The notes under the pieces are model-generated. The model saw nothing but the letters and a program-made list of their open reading frames with translations, was not told the origin of the DNA and made no database searches. Source: a virus. Taken from it: a stretch of DNA of 31,333 nt. The translations under genes were made by a program, and so were the position numbers. Below are positions 7,901 to 30,769 of this stretch, in pieces (positions within the stretch are counted from its first letter, which is position 1; each line of letters starts with the position of its first letter). Where the stretch lies: positions 1 through 31,333 of the IMG/VR virus record IMGVR_UViG_3300010354_000349, one strand, 5' to 3'.

Positions 7901-10900
7901 ATGGCAATAGTTAGTCGTCAAACTGGATTATTATCAGCTGAAAATTGGAAGAAAATTTATCAGACTTTTCGTGAGGCTGACTTTACTGCCTATGATTTTG
8001 AAACCTTGCGTAAGAGCATGATTGATTATATCAAGATCAATTATGCAGAAGATTATAACGATTTTACAGAAAGTTCAGAATTCATAGCCCTAATAGATTT
8101 AATTGCGTTCTTAGGGCAAAGTCTAGCATTTAGAACCGATTTGAATGCTAGAGAAAATTTTATAGATACAGCCGAGCGCCGTGACAGCATACTCAAGCTG
8201 GCACGAATGATCAGCTATAACCCAAAAAGAACAAATAGTGCCACAGGTTATTTAAAAATTGATAGTGTAAGAACAACTGAAGTAGTCTATGATAGTGATG
8301 GTATTGATCTTAGTAATACCACAGTGAATTGGAATGATATTACAAATGAAAATTGGTTAGAACAATTTACTACTATCATTAATGCTGCCTTTATTTCGGG
8401 CCAAATGTTTGGTAAACCCGGCAATTCCCAAAACATAGGTGGTGTGAGGAATGATGAATATGCAATTAATGTAACGCCAAATATTGTACCAGTTTATAAA
8501 TTCAGTGCTGTAGTAGAAGGGCAAGACATGACCTTCGAAGCAGTTAGTGCCACCAGTGCAGGTCAAAGCTATATCTATGAACCCTCACCAGACATAAAGA
8601 AAACATTTAAAATATTATATAGAAATGATGGAGGCGGTAACGCTAGCAACAATACAGGGTTTTTTGTATTTTTCAAACAAGGCGATTTAAACAGGTTTGA
8701 TTTTTCAATTGATGAAATGGTGCCAAACCGAGTAGTCAACATTGACACCAACAACATTAACAATAATGATATCTGGTTATATGAATTAGACAGTGATGGG
8801 TTAACACAAAAAGAATGGAAAAAAGTTTTATCAACTTCGGGCGTAAATGTAGTTTACAATACCAGTCTTGAACGTGATTTATTTCAAGTAAACAGCAGGA
8901 TAAATGACCAAGTCAGTCTTGTATTTGGTGACGGGTCATTTGCTAATGTACCACAAGGAAATTTTAGGGCTTACTACAGAACATCTAACGGATTAGGTTA
9001 TAGAATTACACCAGACGAAATGCGCGGAGTAGCTATAAGCATAGAATATCTTAGCAAATATAATAGAATTGAAACTATATCATTCCGCGCTAGTCTACAA
9101 TACACAGTGGCAAATGCCAGCACCAGAGAAAGCATAGAAGACATTAGACAAAAGGCTCCCCAGCAATATTATACACAAAATAGAATGGTCACTGGTGAGG
9201 ACTATAACATATTACCATATACCAGTTTTAGTAATATCAAAAAGGTCAAAGCTATTAATAGATCAAGTTCAGGTTTAAGCCGTTATCTTGATGTATTAGA
9301 TACTACAGGAAAGTACTCGAGTACAAATACATTTGGAGAAGATGGGGTTTTATATGCTGACAGATATACGGAAGTATTATCCTTTAGTTTTAACAGCACA
9401 ATAGATATTCGAAGAGTAATTAGAAATCAAGTTCTACCCGACATAGTTGCCGGTCGCGACATGATGCATTATTTTTATGCTAATGCATTAGAAGAAACAC
9501 CAATGAATATTGAACTGGCTGCCAACGAATTGTATAATGGTGAAACCTATACTATTGTAGATGTAGGTGACACAGATTTTGTTCAACTTGGTGCTGAAGT
9601 AGGGCAACTCTATGAAACTTTTGTGGCAAAAAATGCACAAAAAGTTACTAGAGAATTCTCTGTTGTTAATATAGGTTCATCAACCTATATGTTCAGTGGT
9701 AGTCAAGTTGGGGGTAATATTAGTATTATAATTAAAGTCGGTGATGTTCTAAAGTTCAATGTCAACGCAACCGGGCATCCATTATGGATTAAAACAAGTC
9801 GAGTTACAGGAACTAATTTCGCAGTAAACACGGGTATTGTAAGTGGTAATGGTGTCGATGATGGTACTATCACTTGGGATACCACTGGTGTTGAGCCCGG
9901 CACTTATTATTATATTTGTCAAGTCCATGGCACTATGTCTGGATTTATTATTGTAGAAAGTTGGGGCACAGGCAAAGTACGAACTGGATTAAAATGGAAT
10001 CTATCCACAGTCGAGGACGGTAGCACAACTGGTTATTTTAGTTACAATCGTGCGCCTGCTGCTATTGCAGTTTCTTCAGGAAATCGTGCTAGATATATGA
10101 GGCCTGGGGCTATGTTAAGATGTGTAGCGCCACCGGGATACTATTTTAATAGTATGTTAAATTTAGTACGAGGTATGCCGGTAAAAGACACTGACACCAC
10201 GGTAATTTATACAGCAATCACTAAGGTAATAGGTAACGGAACCAATGACGGGCAAGGTAATTTTAGCAACGGTGTGGGTCCGGTTACTTTGAACTTGAAT
10301 ATACCTAGTGGTACTATAATAGAATCAGTTATACCAGTTTTTAATAATAGTGTTAGTAATAGTATTGTTGAATCCATGATTGAGCAAGTTGAGTCATTTT
10401 CAAATTTTGGGTTAATCTATAGCACTACTACACAATCATGGCAACTAGTGCCAAGTTCAGGGTTAAGTTCAGTATCATCTTGGTGGGTAAAATTTGAATA
10501 CAGCAATACAGCAAGTATGTATAATGTATTTTACAAAGGCCTTCGTTATGTAATACACAGCCCGCATGATACCAATTTTTTCTATGACGAGTCTTTGCAA
10601 ATTTATGATAATGAAACTAACAGTGTCATAAGAGATAGTGTTAAAATTCTAGGGGTAAATCGTGATCCTAGAGCAAACCAGGCATTGGGCAGAGACTATA
10701 CTTGGTATGTAGATAAGCCCATAGTACGAAATGATGGTTATATTGAAAATAAAAGCATATATCTAACCTATGCTGATACCAACGATGACAGTGTGCCCGA
10801 TTATCCAGATTTATTTGAGCGTGTGGTATTAGGGACACCGTTAACATCAACAGTTCAACATCCGATCGCAGCATACAATGCACAACAAATAAACAGATAT

Positions 10901-11974
10901 TTTCGTGTGTATATGGGCAGATACCCTAATCAAGCCGAACTTGACAATTACACATCAGTTTCGGTAGCAGGCAATAGCTTAGACAATATTAAGATATTGA
11001 TTGCAAACTCTGCTGCTGCTACTAGTTTTAAGAACGGTATTGAAATAAATGATAACCTAGTATTTTTTGAATTGGTGTCGGGGTACGAAGAATATGGGGT
11101 GTGGCAATTAATTCCAAGTAGTAAAATTGCCAGTAATTTTAAATCACTTTCAGATCTACCTACCGAAGTATTGCGTAATTTAAACCTAGGACAGTTGATT
11201 TATGTGCAAGACAATGAAGGATTTTATCGTGTTCAATTGAACCAATTTGGCAATAAAGTTTTGGGAACCGAATTAAATTCATTAACACCAAACATGCCAA
11301 AATATAGATCACATATCGGTCGTCAAAATTTATATTTCCAATATCGACATAATAGTCCTAATACTAATAGAATCGATCCAAATATTAGTAATATTGTTGA
11401 TTTATATATTCTTACAAATGATTATGACACTGCATATCGCCAATGGGTTTCTGATATAACTTATAAATTAAGTGAGCCCGAAGCTCCTACGAACACAGAA
11501 TTACAAGTAGCGTTTAATGATTTAGAAAATTTTAAAACTATCAGTGATACAATTATTTTTCAAAGTGCAGTATTTAAACCACTATTTGGGTCTAAAGCAG
11601 AAACTGCTCTACAAGCTACATTTAAAGTAGTTAAAAATTCATCATTAAATATATCTGATGCTGATATTAAAACTTCAGTAATAGCTGCTATTAATGAATT
11701 TTTTGCTTCAGAAAATTGGGATTTTGGTGAGACTTTTTATTTTAGTGAATTATCGGCTTATCTGCATAAAGAACTTAGTCCAAACATTGCCAGTGTAATA
11801 ATTGTGCCTAAAGACACTTCATTATCCTTTGGTAGTTTTTATCAAATTAATGCTGAGCCATATGAGTTATTAATTAGTGCAGCCACAGTTAATGATGTAG
11901 AAGTTATCAGTGCTATAACTGCTGGGCAACTTAACCAAGCATTAGCATTGGCAAACCAAAGTGTTAGTTTATAA
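7901..11974 (+). CDS. 6: Baseplate wedge protein gp6-like (baseplate-J type) with cupredoxin insert
   Basis: 1357 residues, about twice T4 gp6 (660). The N-terminus is a typical gp6 start: FREADFTAYDFETLRKSMID, then FIALIDLIAFLGQSLAFRTD and ARENFIDTAERRDSILKLAR. The J-like domain shows LVFGDGSFANVPQGNFRAYY near residues 344-363. The C-terminus (about 1215-1350) keeps the wedge-dimer region (KTSVIAAINEFFASENWDFG; FYFSELSAYLHKELSPNIAS). Three extra modules are inserted: a cupredoxin-like domain at about 588-690 with type-1 copper ligands H626, C673, H676 and M679; a calcium-loop-like DTNDDSVPDYPD at 959-970; and a DUF4214-like stretch at about 987-1045 (INRYFRVYMGRYPNQAELDN). gp6 dimers form the ring holding the baseplate wedges together. 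A late box and 13-base leader precede it. Confidence 0.9.
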   Translation: MAIVSRQTGLLSAENWKKIYQTFREADFTAYDFETLRKSMIDYIKINYAEDYNDFTESSEFIALIDLIAFLGQSLAFRTDLNARENFIDTAERRDSILKLARMISYNPKRTNSATGYLKIDSVRTTEVVYDSDGIDLSNTTVNWNDITNENWLEQFTTIINAAFISGQMFGKPGNSQNIGGVRNDEYAINVTPNIVPVYKFSAVVEGQDMTFEAVSATSAGQSYIYEPSPDIKKTFKILYRNDGGGNASNNTGFFVFFKQGDLNRFDFSIDEMVPNRVVNIDTNNINNNDIWLYELDSDGLTQKEWKKVLSTSGVNVVYNTSLERDLFQVNSRINDQVSLVFGDGSFANVPQGNFRAYYRTSNGLGYRITPDEMRGVAISIEYLSKYNRIETISFRASLQYTVANASTRESIEDIRQKAPQQYYTQNRMVTGEDYNILPYTSFSNIKKVKAINRSSSGLSRYLDVLDTTGKYSSTNTFGEDGVLYADRYTEVLSFSFNSTIDIRRVIRNQVLPDIVAGRDMMHYFYANALEETPMNIELAANELYNGETYTIVDVGDTDFVQLGAEVGQLYETFVAKNAQKVTREFSVVNIGSSTYMFSGSQVGGNISIIIKVGDVLKFNVNATGHPLWIKTSRVTGTNFAVNTGIVSGNGVDDGTITWDTTGVEPGTYYYICQVHGTMSGFIIVESWGTGKVRTGLKWNLSTVEDGSTTGYFSYNRAPAAIAVSSGNRARYMRPGAMLRCVAPPGYYFNSMLNLVRGMPVKDTDTTVIYTAITKVIGNGTNDGQGNFSNGVGPVTLNLNIPSGTIIESVIPVFNNSVSNSIVESMIEQVESFSNFGLIYSTTTQSWQLVPSSGLSSVSSWWVKFEYSNTASMYNVFYKGLRYVIHSPHDTNFFYDESLQIYDNETNSVIRDSVKILGVNRDPRANQALGRDYTWYVDKPIVRNDGYIENKSIYLTYADTNDDSVPDYPDLFERVVLGTPLTSTVQHPIAAYNAQQINRYFRVYMGRYPNQAELDNYTSVSVAGNSLDNIKILIANSAAATSFKNGIEINDNLVFFELVSGYEEYGVWQLIPSSKIASNFKSLSDLPTEVLRNLNLGQLIYVQDNEGFYRVQLNQFGNKVLGTELNSLTPNMPKYRSHIGRQNLYFQYRHNSPNTNRIDPNISNIVDLYILTNDYDTAYRQWVSDITYKLSEPEAPTNTELQVAFNDLENFKTISDTIIFQSAVFKPLFGSKAETALQATFKVVKNSSLNISDADIKTSVIAAINEFFASENWDFGETFYFSELSAYLHKELSPNIASVIIVPKDTSLSFGSFYQINAEPYELLISAATVNDVEVISAITAGQLNQALALANQSVSL

Positions 11975-11984
11975 GTGATCTAAA

Positions 11985-14900
11985 ATGGCCCTAAAAAGAA
12001 AAACTTTAAATTTCTTACCAACGATTTTTCGTACAGATACTAATAGAAAATTTCTAGGTAGTACAGTTGATCAATTAGTCAATGAACCAGAGATTAAAAG
12101 AATCAATGGTTATGTAGGGAGACAATTTAGTCCGACATTTAAACCTGATACTAACTATGTGGTCGAAACTGATCTTGATCGACAAAATTATCAACTTGAG
12201 CCTAGTTTTGTGGTTCGTAATACTAGTAACCAGGTAACTGCTTATGGGAATTATGTTGATCTTATCAACAAGATAGACTATTACGGCGGTCAGACAGATA
12301 ACCATGATAGGTTATTTGAATCAGATTTTTACACATTTGATCCACAGATTGACCTTGACAAGTTTGTTAATTATAGTCAGTACTACTGGTTGCCTACTGG
12401 CCCTGAGCAGGTTGTCATTAGTAGTCAAACTTTGGCAACTTCAAACACTTATGCTTTGAGTTATTCGTCTGGTAGTTTAATAACTAACCAGACCGGTGCT
12501 ATCCAAAATCCAACTATAGTTGTCAAGCGCGGTGAAACCTATACATTTAATGTGGGTGCTGGAAGCGGCAATTTATGGATACAAAGTGAACCAGGGCAAG
12601 ATGGTCTTAAAGATTACGCACCAGGTTCTAGTACTAGAGATGTATATGGAGTTACTAACAACGGTACTTCAACGATTACTTTTACAGTGCCGCAAGGAAA
12701 TGAACAAAATAATCTATATCAGTCCCCATTTATAGGCTATGTTGACTATGCGCTGACTGAAAGATTTACTGATATTGATAACGGTATATATCGAACATCT
12801 GGCGGAACTATTAATTCATTTAGTGGAGAAACATTTTATCCAAATGATGTATATGTAGTATTCACACAAACCAGTACGGCCAATGGCGACTGGACTGACA
12901 GAACAGGTGCAGTTGTACCAACTAATCGTCGTCGTGGTATTTGGCGTATACGATTGAATAGTGACCCAACTGAAGCTCCTATAGTAAGAATGCGTTTAGA
13001 GTTTGTTAGGTCTATACCAATTGGCACAAGATTTGAAATTAATAAAAGTCAATTAATTCGCGGACGAGTTTATAGAGTTAATATGTTGGGATTGTTTGAA
13101 GTTGTTCCCAACTTAACTGCGGCCTCAACAACTTTATATTATCAGAATGATACTCAAAATATTTCCGGGCAAATTAAAATCGTTGATAATATTTTTAATT
13201 TTATCAATGTTGATTCCGACATAGTCGGCCAACCCGGCTACACAAGTCCACAAGGGATAGTTTTTACAAATGGGTTAAAGATCAGATTTGATGACACAAT
13301 AAACCCTAGTATCTATCGTAATCGTACTTTTATAGTTGAAGGTGTAGGCACTGCTATTAGTCTAATAGATTATGCTACCTTAGTGACACCAGAAGTTAGG
13401 GCCCCACAAGCAGGTGTGCCTTTTGATTTTGTACTATATGATCAAGACTTATATGATGAAACATATTCAGGGTCTCTAACACCTGATTATATTGTTTGTA
13501 ATCGTGCCACAATTGATAGGAACGCATGGGCTAGAATAAATCGTTGGACTCATATAGATGTAATAAAACAATCATTTGCCTATAATAATTTGCCTATAGT
13601 AATTGATCAGAAATTCTGCGCCAAGCGACCTATTATTGAATTTAAACCGAATTTACAATTATTTAACAATGGTAAAAAGTTTTTCGCTATAGTTAATAAA
13701 TTCTTTGAACTCAATCGACAGATTACTGTAGCCGGGCAAAATGTACCATTTGATAATATTTCAATTCTCGTTGGACAAACTTTTAGAACAATCCGTAGCT
13801 ATAATATAGATTTGCAAGGTGGAGACACAGCAATTTTTGCTGGTGATAATGATCCTCAAGTTCGACCAAGAGTATATAATATTGGATTTTTAAATCAAAG
13901 TACAAGTACTACATTTGATGCTAGCCTGACAGGGACAGTAAGTGGAGTAAGAAATAAATTCTTAGTAGGCACTGGGACCCGATTTTTAACTGAGCTCGAA
14001 ATTGGTGATGAACTTTTTGAATCAAGTGGCGTCTATGTTGGACGAGTTGTTAAAATCAAAGGTGATTCAGAATTAGAAATAGACAGGAATCTCACCACAG
14101 TTTTTTCTAATTTGCCTAATTTTCATATTAAACACGCCAAAATAAACTTAACTACAAATAGCACTGCATTAGTGAATGATATTGCAGTGTGTTTAAGTGG
14201 CGTGAATTCAGGTAACAGTTTTTATTATTCTGCGTCAACTCAATGGATTCTATCACAAAGAAAAAGATCACTGAACCAAGAACCCTTATTTGATATAGTT
14301 AATGACAATGGTATTAGTCTCAGCCAGGCATATACTTTTAGTACTTTTGCTGGAACTAAGTTATTTTCTTATCGTCGTGGTTCGGGTGCAGTAGACTCAG
14401 TATTAGGATTCAGTCTTAGTTATAGCGGTATTGGCGATTTTATTGGTGATATTGATTTTGTTAATAATTATTCAGCTGATACTTTTAAGTATCGTCTAAG
14501 TGCTGCTACAAGTGAAATTACCCTAAAAGTTGATACAGGGTTTATTAAACGATTAGTTGATAACAGTTTAATTGATGAGAAGATCTCGGTCTGGAATCGC
14601 GTGATCGAACCGACACATCAATATCAATTGGTTAGTGGTATATATGATGGATTATCATCTTATTTTGAAATTGGTGTTATGCCAAATTCCAACGGACAAT
14701 CGTTTACTGAAAATCCAAAGGTAAAACTTTTTATTAACAACCGATTAGTTATCAAAAATAGTTTAGTGACATCAGGGATTTATACTATTCAAAATATTGG
14801 TGAACGAATAGCTATTCAAATCAATCCTGATTTGCTAACAAAAGGTGACAGAGTTGACATTGTTTTTTACAGCGATCGAGTATCAAATTTTGGATTTTAT

Positions 14901-25649: not shown

Positions 25650-26813
25650 ATGCCTTATAATGTAAACAAAACAAACGGCGACTTACTAGTTGTTGTTGAA
25701 GATGGTACAGTGGATGTAAACAGTGTGAGTTTGACTCTACTGGGCAAAAACTATCCTGGTTACGGCGAATTCATAAATGAAAATTTTGTACATCTATTAG
25801 AAAATTTCAGTAGTACCACACAGCCTGACGCTCCAATCGAAGGGCAGCTTTGGTACGACAGCGCCAATAAAGTTGTTAAAGTTTATAATGGCAGTACTTT
25901 TGGTAGTGTTGGGACAGGTATTCAGTTAGATATTACTTCAACTAATGTTCATTTTCCCATGTTTATAGCCAGTGAGACTGGTGGTGAAAATTTTAAAATC
26001 GCTAGAAACAAAAGCATATCAATACAACCCAGTACTGGTAATGTAGCAATCAACAAAAATGACCCAGGAATAGTTAAATTAGACATAAACGGTGGGGCAT
26101 TAACTAGAACGGGATTACAATCTAGTCCACTTGGCAGCGGGCATGTAGTACAGATTCATGGTCCCGACGGCGGCGGCAGCGCAGCTATAAATATTGATCA
26201 TTACAGTGGTGCTGCTGGAACGTTTGCGTCCGGTGGAGGATTGTTAGCTAGATCTGCTAGAGGAACCAGTGCTTCTAAAGTTGCACTAGGTATTGATGAT
26301 TTTATTACATTTGTAAATGGTAGAGGATATGATGGCACTGTATATAGTGATAATGTAGGCGCATTCCTAATTCGTGCCAACCAGAATTGGACATCTACCG
26401 CGCACGGTTCTCGAATAGAATTTTGGACAACAAACAATGGACAAACTAGTCATTCAAGGAAAGTTATGATTGATCATAATGGTGATTTGTCTACCGTAGG
26501 TGATATTATTGCTTTCAATACTAGTGATATTACTTTAAAAACCGACATACAAAAAATTACAGGTGCATTAGACAAAGTTTGTCAACTTGATGGGATTCGA
26601 TTTAGCTGGTTAAACAATACTGGTAAAGAACTAAATCAACCTGCTGTTGGTGTAATAGCGCAACAGGTGCAAGATGTTTTGCCTGAAGCAGTTAGGACTA
26701 AAGATACAGGGTTCTTGGGTGTAGATTATACACAATTGGTGCCTTTACTTATAGAAGCCATTAAGGATCTCAAAACTCAAATTGAAGATTTACAAACACT
26801 AAAATTAGGATAA
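25650..26813 (+). CDS. Tail fibre with C-terminal S74 intramolecular chaperone
   Basis: 387 residues. The N-terminal part (PYNVNKTNGDLLVVVEDGTV; FVHLLENFSS; GQLWYDSANKVVKVYNGSTF) is the attachment-type domain common to fibres of T4-like phages. A Gly-rich beta region (about 140-285) probably forms the trimeric shaft. The C-terminus is a peptidase-S74 chaperone: SDITLK gives S292 and K297, the Ser-Lys pair spaced as in the endosialidase family (S911/K916), followed by DGIRFSWLNNTGKEL, GVIAQQVQDVLPEAV and GVDYTQLVPLLIEAIKDLKT with a short coiled coil. The chaperone drives trimerisation and then cuts itself off before the Ser, leaving a mature fibre of about 291 residues. GGAG precedes the ATG and a late box lies upstream. 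Host receptor specificity cannot be read. Confidence 0.88.
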   Translation: MPYNVNKTNGDLLVVVEDGTVDVNSVSLTLLGKNYPGYGEFINENFVHLLENFSSTTQPDAPIEGQLWYDSANKVVKVYNGSTFGSVGTGIQLDITSTNVHFPMFIASETGGENFKIARNKSISIQPSTGNVAINKNDPGIVKLDINGGALTRTGLQSSPLGSGHVVQIHGPDGGGSAAINIDHYSGAAGTFASGGGLLARSARGTSASKVALGIDDFITFVNGRGYDGTVYSDNVGAFLIRANQNWTSTAHGSRIEFWTTNNGQTSHSRKVMIDHNGDLSTVGDIIAFNTSDITLKTDIQKITGALDKVCQLDGIRFSWLNNTGKELNQPAVGVIAQQVQDVLPEAVRTKDTGFLGVDYTQLVPLLIEAIKDLKTQIEDLQTLKLG

Positions 26814-28594: not shown

Positions 28595-30769
28595 ATGACA
28601 ACAAATAATTTACACAAATACACTATTCTACTAGCTAAACATCAAGATTTAGATGATTTCTATAATGACATGGAAAGCCCGGGTGGTAATTTATATATCC
28701 CTAATCGTAGAGTAGATTTAGCTTTGAGAAGACCATTTAGTAGAAATACCCAATATTATCTTACCCACGATGAAGCCAAATTGGTTTCACAGGATCCTCG
28801 AGTGCTATTTGTTAGATTAACTGATGATCCTAATGTTGAAGATATCTTAAGCACTAGTCCGCATCCCGAAGACTGGGTAAGCTGGACTTCTGCAAGTGAC
28901 TATTTTACAAAAAGAAAACGCACTGCCCCAGAAGAAGCCTATAGTCCCGTTGAAGCTATAGGAATTACTAATTGGGGGTTGTTAAGAACTGCAGAAATAC
29001 AAAATAGAGATATGTGGGAATCTGGTCCCAGTACAATAGATCCAGCTTCACCTACTAAATGGTATAATGCACATGCCCTATTACAATCTAAATTTGGTGG
29101 ACATAATATAGATATGGTGATCTGGGACGGAATTTTTGACCCAAATCACCCAGATTTCGCAGTTAATCCTGACGGCACTGGGGGCACTCGTGCCATTCAG
29201 CGAGATTGGTATAGTAGAAATACAGCTTGTGGGTATCCTTATACTGGGCCTTATCCTTATGTAAGAAACCGGTTTTTTACAGGATTTGGTTTTGCCGATG
29301 TAGATTTACTTAATTCAGCCAGTGGTCAACATGGAGTTCATGTGGCTTCTACTGCGGCAGGTAATCGTCATGGATTCGCAAGAGAAGCTAACATATATAA
29401 TATAGGTTTTTTAAGCCGTGACGGTTTCAATTGGGATCAAGCACGGGACCTTCTTTACGACTGGCATGTAAATGTCAAGCCTGCTCAGGGAAATAACAAT
29501 TTAACTGTTATTAATCTCAGTGCCGGTTCAAATGCATTTGTTGCATATGCAGATATAGATTATTTCATGGTCAATGGTTCAAGAGTAGATGATCCAAGGG
29601 GAGGAAACACATGGGCACTTGCTGACTTTACTTTGTCCAGAAGTATTCAATTAGGAATAAGTTGGCAGGGGCAGAGACGGGCTACAGGTATAAACTTTGC
29701 TGTAGCATATCCCGATAGACAAGCCGACATAGAAGACATGATTAGCGCGGGCATTTATTTTGTCACAGCCGGTGGCAACGATCAAAATACCATTCATGCA
29801 TGGGATAATGATAATCGGGTAGTTAAAAAGAATACTCAGTTTTACTATTATAATAGAGGATCGTTTACATCACAAAATGCTATTATTGTAGGAAATATGG
29901 ATACTACTGGACAACCTAGGCTGCATTTAACTTCGGCTCGTGGGGCGGGAGTCACTGTTAGTGCGCCTGGCACAGATATTTGGGCAGCATCAAATGTTCT
30001 AGCTGATCCAAGTGATAAAAATTTTAAATTTTTACCCGACTATAGAAATATAAATTATGCTTTACGACCAGAAACTGGAACGAGCATGGCATCGCCTCAT
30101 GTTGCCGGTGTGGTGGCTTTGATTCTAAATGAAGATCCTGGCTTAACTCCGGCTGCTGTTAAAGCTAAAATTATGAATGATTCAGCAAAAGGCCAATTGT
30201 ACATAAATTATGGATATTCGCTCTCGCACCCATTGGCATTTGCACATAACGATGGAATTCTAACATCATCAAATATCATTATTTCTGAGTTTACACCTAA
30301 TAGTGAAATATTTCGCACTAAAACAATAAGTTCAGGTGTAACGACTCTTGCGCCACAAGCGAAATCTATCAGTCTGAGTTTTAATAGTAATCCAACTAAT
30401 GTTGGGTTTATATATAGAGTGGCTTTGAAAGATAGAGCAGATATTAGCATTGATATACAAGTCGACAACGACAGCACTAACTTCCCTAATGTTACCTACC
30501 CTGCTACATCAACTCATGGAACTCCATTTTCGTGGAGTATTTCAGGTGGCACACCGGGGGACACTTATTTCGTTTGGACTAAAGGTGCTTTTAGAGTTCG
30601 AGTACCTGCAACTGGTGGTGCTGTGCTTGATGGATCCGGTAGCATAAGTTACAACAATGCCGATTGGTCAACTGTGCAGGGCGGTACGGCCAACTTCGGG
30701 ACTATTACTGTAATATTTTATTTTGGTAATGGACACATTGTAACTAAACAACATACAGTTTCGCAATAA
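28595..30769 (+). CDS. Subtilisin-like serine protease (S8) in the tail-fibre region
   Basis: 724 residues. The catalytic set of subtilases is present: D178 in IWDGIFDPNHPDF, H246 in GQHGVHVASTAAG, oxyanion N395 in TAGGND, and S497 in GTSMASPHVAGVVALIL. The residue after the Asp is Gly rather than the usual Thr, and D-T-G-I reads D-G-I-F. Residues about 5-90 (YTILLAKHQDLDDFYNDMES; YYLTHDEAKLVSQDPRVLFV) look like an inhibitor-I9-type propeptide that would fold the enzyme and be cut off. About 200 residues follow the catalytic domain and hold a beta-rich module (TYFVWTKGAFRVRVP) that may anchor it in the virion. There is no secretion signal, so it is probably virion-borne or acts on virion proteins. 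Possible targets are host surface proteins or the giant structural proteins; not decidable here. No clear ribosome-binding site precedes the ATG. Confidence 0.88.
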   Translation: MTTNNLHKYTILLAKHQDLDDFYNDMESPGGNLYIPNRRVDLALRRPFSRNTQYYLTHDEAKLVSQDPRVLFVRLTDDPNVEDILSTSPHPEDWVSWTSASDYFTKRKRTAPEEAYSPVEAIGITNWGLLRTAEIQNRDMWESGPSTIDPASPTKWYNAHALLQSKFGGHNIDMVIWDGIFDPNHPDFAVNPDGTGGTRAIQRDWYSRNTACGYPYTGPYPYVRNRFFTGFGFADVDLLNSASGQHGVHVASTAAGNRHGFAREANIYNIGFLSRDGFNWDQARDLLYDWHVNVKPAQGNNNLTVINLSAGSNAFVAYADIDYFMVNGSRVDDPRGGNTWALADFTLSRSIQLGISWQGQRRATGINFAVAYPDRQADIEDMISAGIYFVTAGGNDQNTIHAWDNDNRVVKKNTQFYYYNRGSFTSQNAIIVGNMDTTGQPRLHLTSARGAGVTVSAPGTDIWAASNVLADPSDKNFKFLPDYRNINYALRPETGTSMASPHVAGVVALILNEDPGLTPAAVKAKIMNDSAKGQLYINYGYSLSHPLAFAHNDGILTSSNIIISEFTPNSEIFRTKTISSGVTTLAPQAKSISLSFNSNPTNVGFIYRVALKDRADISIDIQVDNDSTNFPNVTYPATSTHGTPFSWSISGGTPGDTYFVWTKGAFRVRVPATGGAVLDGSGSISYNNADWSTVQGGTANFGTITVIFYFGNGHIVTKQHTVSQ

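Follow-up and report, generated by a model that had tools for sequence, protein, structure and literature searches.

A cupredoxin domain within a gp6-like baseplate wedge protein

We analysed a stretch of viral DNA of 31,333 nucleotides, referred to below as the window, in which one long ORF encodes a protein resembling the baseplate wedge subunit gp6. The features discussed are the following, all on the plus strand.

7901..11974, plus strand: gp6-like baseplate wedge protein of the jumbo-phage type, 1357 aa (phrog_10646 match and gp6 alignments)
9488..9985 (approximate), plus strand: lineage-specific insert, ~165 residues long, that separates the gp6 core from the C-terminal part
9533..9640, plus strand: small module preceding the cupredoxin, GETYTIVDVGDTDFVQLGAEVGQLYETFVAK, which occurs alone in loci L046-L048 and L063
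9650..9964, plus strand: cupredoxin domain, residues ~584-688 (AlphaFold2 pLDDT 97.6; Foldseek and VIA-align; family profile)
9776..9778 (CAT), plus strand: His626, predicted first type-1 copper ligand, which falls on the copper-binding His of plastocyanin 1kdi and rusticyanin 1rcy in the profile alignment
9917..9919 (TGT), plus strand: Cys673, predicted thiolate ligand and final residue of a strand (model and profile alignment)
9926..9928 (CAT), plus strand: His676, predicted second His ligand (profile alignment)
9935..9937 (ATG), plus strand: Met679, predicted axial ligand (profile alignment)
12480..12719, plus strand: ligand-free cupredoxin-like domain in the N-terminal region of the 4285-aa ORF after gp6 (HMM E 1.3e-6)

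Homology of the 7901-11974 ORF extends over the gp6 core: it matched phrog_10646, 'baseplate wedge subunit', at E 3e-285, with residues 1-581 as the best stretch, and the gp6 proteins of RaK2, PA5oct, SCTP-2 and Phosso could be aligned with it across both ends, as expected of the same wedge protein. These results bear out the location in a gp6-like wedge protein proposed in a preliminary description of this DNA. The Pfam family Gp6-like_1st was sub-threshold on the same ORF (13.3 vs 27 bits). The flanking ORFs encode more baseplate proteins, namely a hub/lysozyme-like protein and two other wedge subunits; elsewhere, at 25650-26813, the window encodes a tail-fibre protein with an S74 intramolecular chaperone at its end. 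A metabolic, free plastocyanin gene picked up by the phage was rejected as an explanation, because the frame is gp6 from end to end. The cupredoxin lies inside this 1357-aa gp6-like protein and is not a free-standing small exported electron carrier.

The ~165-residue insert distinguishes the window protein from gp6 of RaK2, PA5oct, SCTP-2 and Phosso, and is also missing from most IMG/VR orthologues. A small separate module, with the consensus GETYTIVxxGxTDFxxxGAxxNxxGxxFVA, comes first and folded confidently in a 421-residue model; the cupredoxin forms the second part. The preliminary description had correctly recognised a cupredoxin here, with coordinates that were slightly too narrow: the domain spans about residues 584-688. 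A sequence search meant to place the insert in the structure of T4 gp6 gave chance matches only, and the match list of a search with a context model was filled by the cupredoxin itself.

Fold and relationship to blue copper proteins

An AlphaFold2 model of 110 residues had nine strands, with a mean pLDDT of 97.6 and a pTM of 0.90. In model numbering, H47 (His626) lies directly ahead of strand E49-52, C94 closes strand E88-94, and H97 and M100 fall within the loop ahead of the last strand; the ligand placement predicted by the model is the cupredoxin arrangement. Foldseek against the PDB returned rusticyanin as the top match (6.3e-6) and 88 chains at E<=1e-3. VIA-align superposed 94 residues on the N-terminal domain of Hyphomicrobium nitrite reductase (Z 11.0, rmsd 2.2) and gave Z 10.3 for rusticyanin. 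Model, Foldseek and VIA-align all describe a cupredoxin-type Greek-key beta-sandwich, and among predicted viral proteins the best structural matches were cyanophage subtilase and structural proteins, at TM 0.95.

Significant sequence similarity to solved cupredoxins was found by a family profile, and not by the single window sequence. The profile, built from an alignment of 27 domains, matched NirK (7.5e-6), plastocyanin (5.3e-5) and rusticyanin (1.2e-4) among PDB sequences, and the four ligand columns coincided in the alignments with plastocyanin 1kdi and rusticyanin 1rcy. Taken singly, the window domain had amicyanin as its best phmmer match in the PDB (E 0.11) and scored under the curated cut-offs of single blue-copper families (14.7 vs 21.2 bits for the Pfam PF00127 Copper-bind gathering cut-off; 19.2 vs 110.2 bits for NCBIfam TIGR02657, amicyanin). 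At E<=0.01, PF00127 was matched by 31/72 relatives. Eight of the 72 alignment members also matched the Pfam At5g54830-like domain (best 8.7e-5), which hints at a eukaryotic link. The cupredoxin fold that had been proposed from the sequence was thus recovered by structure prediction, structural comparison and the profile match to solved copper proteins, with the ligands at the expected topological places.

A conserved His-Cys-His-Met ligand set

Numbering and spacing of H626, C673, H676 and M679 proved to be as claimed, with an H-to-C distance of 47 and a C-x2-H-x2-M loop. The codons, read directly, and the agreement of the ligand columns with 1kdi and 1rcy confirm that the type-1 copper ligand set is complete; by sequence and topology, the canonical His, Cys and His positions and that of the axial Met are all occupied.

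We aligned 27 relatives that share 30-59% identity with the window domain. Just six columns were invariant, H45, P46, Y90, C92, H95 and M98: the four ligands together with one Pro and one Tyr. These relatives were not picked for the motif, since most were retrieved by a tblastn of phage genomes that used no pattern, and the alignment argues that the ligand pattern in the window lies far beyond chance. Among 154 distinct near-full-length domains, 146 carried H-C-H-M, a count biased to intact sites because many of the domains were collected by scan patterns containing ligand residues; the phage tblastn loci and the gp6 orthologues discussed below were collected without such patterns. Both synonymous forms of the His and Cys ligand codons were used within the 154-domain set. 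The invariant columns, the predominance of H-C-H-M (146/154) and the synonymous codon changes together argue that selection acts on the ligand site.

Gain and loss of the site within gp6

The history of the insert was followed in 80 gp6 orthologues from IMG/VR. All four ligands were present in gp6 of L034-L037, L040 and L041, and were replaced in the orthologous domain of L038, L039, L042-L044 and L095. In these replaced domains GHP became GNP or GYP, YxC became YxS or YxA, and the second His became N, S or T; in L038, L039, L042 and L043 the H, C and H were all gone (NSNI, YSSM, YATM, NSNM). L157-L159 read H-S-H-L, with loss of Cys and Met. The gp6 proteins of L046-L048 and L063 had the small preceding module alone, and most other orthologues had neither module nor cupredoxin. 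By eye, L045 and L074 carry a different, Ig-like-looking insert at the corresponding site. The gp6 frame of L040, L041 and L109 is split over two ORFs, through a true break, an insertion or a sequencing error.

In a quick tree of the N-terminal ~526 gp6 residues, with the insert omitted, one gain of the domain suffices. Orthologues with HCHM, those with HSHL and those with lost ligands formed one group each (SH-aLRT 87, 100 and 97, respectively). On this tree, the cupredoxin was gained once in gp6 of one jumbo-myovirus branch. Its fold persists in sister gp6 proteins without the ligand site, and the joint loss in those sister domains indicates that the four ligand residues act as a unit, i.e., as a metal site. 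This gp6 branch, with orthologous domains whose ligands are intact, partly lost or wholly lost, is a natural experiment on the purpose of the copper.

The idea that relatives without the gp6 copy carry an intact cupredoxin elsewhere was not supported in the contigs searched, which are fragments. Outside the giant ORF that follows gp6, contigs without a gp6 cupredoxin had other copies only in L048 and L055, both without the His and Cys ligands. Within the giant ORF, most of the contigs searched from relatives gave a match at the corresponding place, though not each was inspected.

A mobile domain of virion proteins

Relatives of the domain are widespread. The tblastn of phage genomes yielded 50 records, mostly Synechococcus and Prochlorococcus phages, with some podoviruses and one Actinomycetia phage; a scan of IMG/VR found at least 589 viral contigs encoding relatives; and a scan of cellular genomes found 50 loci with a related domain, several of them short ORFs with lipoprotein- or signal-peptide-like N-termini, as judged by eye. 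Subtilases (Peptidase_S8) made up 32 of 59 non-redundant viral proteins bearing the domain, and tail fibres, wedge connectors, collagen-like proteins and others the remainder. The cupredoxin is C-terminal or internal on its viral carriers, and 52/129 copies stop at most 12 residues from the ORF end.

The family is a widespread, mobile, virion-decorating module that is not baseplate-specific. A baseplate-specific function was rejected as a general explanation, because most relatives are subtilases, fibres and connectors. The presence of the domain in hundreds of phages suggests that many virions may carry copper.

Several further arrangements were seen. The window itself encodes a subtilase without a cupredoxin in the structural gene block (28595-30769; Peptidase_S8, E 3e-28). 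The contig of L036 has, besides its gp6 copy, an intact cupredoxin inside a subtilase catalytic domain. Such a subtilase of a close relative is L244 (G003:C1:46000-48824), in which a long tail rich in Thr and Pro comes after the catalytic domain with its intact cupredoxin. The virion-type proteins L160 and L192 contain up to five cupredoxin-profile matches in tandem, some with altered ligands.

Predicted copper binding and proposed role

From its conserved ligand set, we predict that the window cupredoxin very probably binds copper. Most likely, it serves as an accessory module that is displayed on the surface and acquires copper once outside the cell. A His-Cys-His-Met cupredoxin with a short loop of the amicyanin type entered gp6 a single time, in one jumbo-myovirus branch. 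Free copper is very scarce in the cytoplasm, and for this reason loading is placed outside the cell: the domain would fold metal-free in the host cytoplasm, and after lysis each copy would bind one external copper ion, so that a virion with as many gp6 copies as T4 would hold 12. The module may be exposed and serve an accessory or adhesion function, in which the copper site would stiffen or tune a binding surface. We give this account as a whole, from fold and single gain to post-lysis loading and an exposed accessory or adhesion role, about an even chance of being right.

The ligand-free gp6 orthologues count against a need for copper, because there the domain is kept without it. That the site can vanish while the module stays speaks for a metal that is accessory and useful under some conditions, and against an essential structural staple. 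The preliminary description had suggested a metal role in baseplate stability; as a general role this does not hold, since sister gp6 proteins manage without the site. Alternatively, the copper could be a pure structural staple that locks the last two strands and helps an exposed virion domain to resist unfolding and proteolysis, with no host-contact or redox role. The same ligands recur across very different virion proteins, as expected of a generic stabiliser, and the domain is common in protease-bearing virion proteins; but the retention of ligand-free orthologous gp6 domains makes such a staple dispensable, and zinc or calcium sites would probably be cheaper, so that we consider this rather unlikely. 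Nor is the metal necessarily copper. A virion assembled in the copper-poor cytoplasm perhaps never has copper available, and the intact cluster could then hold another metal (zinc, or Cu(I) only) or normally stay empty; L157-L159 retain both His without the Cys, which is consistent with this. However, Cys and axial Met together with both His in 146/154 domains are a type-1 copper signature and not a typical zinc set, which makes another metal or an empty site very unlikely. The score of the window domain alone, under the Pfam Copper-bind cut-off, would also suit a motif that arose by chance in some unrelated beta-sandwich (Ig-like or BACON-like), a vanishingly improbable reading that is ruled out by the invariant ligands, the fold matches and profile E-values of 1e-4 to 1e-6.

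The redox or host-sensing role that had also been raised is possible, but it found no support and is a guess. Such a device might cycle between Cu(I) and Cu(II) or dock on host copper-uptake or electron-transfer proteins. Its ligands are of the electron-transfer type (two His, Cys and axial Met), and many relatives infect Synechococcus and Prochlorococcus, which use plastocyanin. By analogy, iron-bearing tail fibres have been proposed to exploit host siderophore receptors as a 'Trojan horse' (PMC11705849). Against this, we found no evidence of a redox partner, second redox centre or receptor, the virion has no electron source, and ligand-free orthologues persist; we therefore rate a redox or sensing device as quite unlikely. 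A broader speculation, and a decidedly long shot, is that in many aquatic phages the outer tail proteins of the virion bear type-1 copper centres in the loaded state, filled only after lysis, which would mark or trigger the step from the inside of the cell to the free particle or serve docking on host copper-handling surface proteins. If true, this would be a copper counterpart to the proposed iron Trojan horse. Blue-copper domains built into many phage virions could also make these particles a reservoir of bound copper in water.

Comparison with known metal-bearing proteins

Blue copper proteins are familiar as electron carriers and enzyme domains. The window domain shares with amicyanin, plastocyanin and rusticyanin (PF00127) the fold, the His-Cys-His-Met ligands and a Cys that ends the penultimate strand, and with amicyanin in particular the short C-x2-H-x2-M loop (3ply alignment). 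Those proteins are small exported electron carriers, whereas the window domain is internal to a virion structural protein, with no known partner. The same domain family is found on virion proteins of marine phages, Kyanoviridae among them (phrog_9158, the phrog_677 wedge connector, phrog_27200 and subtilase-cupredoxin proteins), with the same ligands and about 30-54% identity to the window domain; these copies ride on connectors, fibres and subtilases, while the window copy sits within a jumbo-phage gp6. In the open-licence literature we found no earlier description of a cupredoxin as part of a phage virion protein. A large, conserved set of such domains on the tails, fibres and proteases of virions would give blue-copper chemistry a new setting.

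Cyanophages also encode a copper protein, the phage plastocyanin petE, but it is listed among metabolic genes, apart from virion structural proteins (PMC3037559), whereas the window cupredoxin is part of a virion structural protein. The nearest known concept is that of the iron-binding HxH tail fibres described for T4 gp37 and Alteromonas phage R22Y (PMC11705849). There, as predicted here, side chains hold a metal in a tail protein; the fibres bind iron on the HxH motifs of a trimer, whereas the window protein offers a copper-type site within a cupredoxin.
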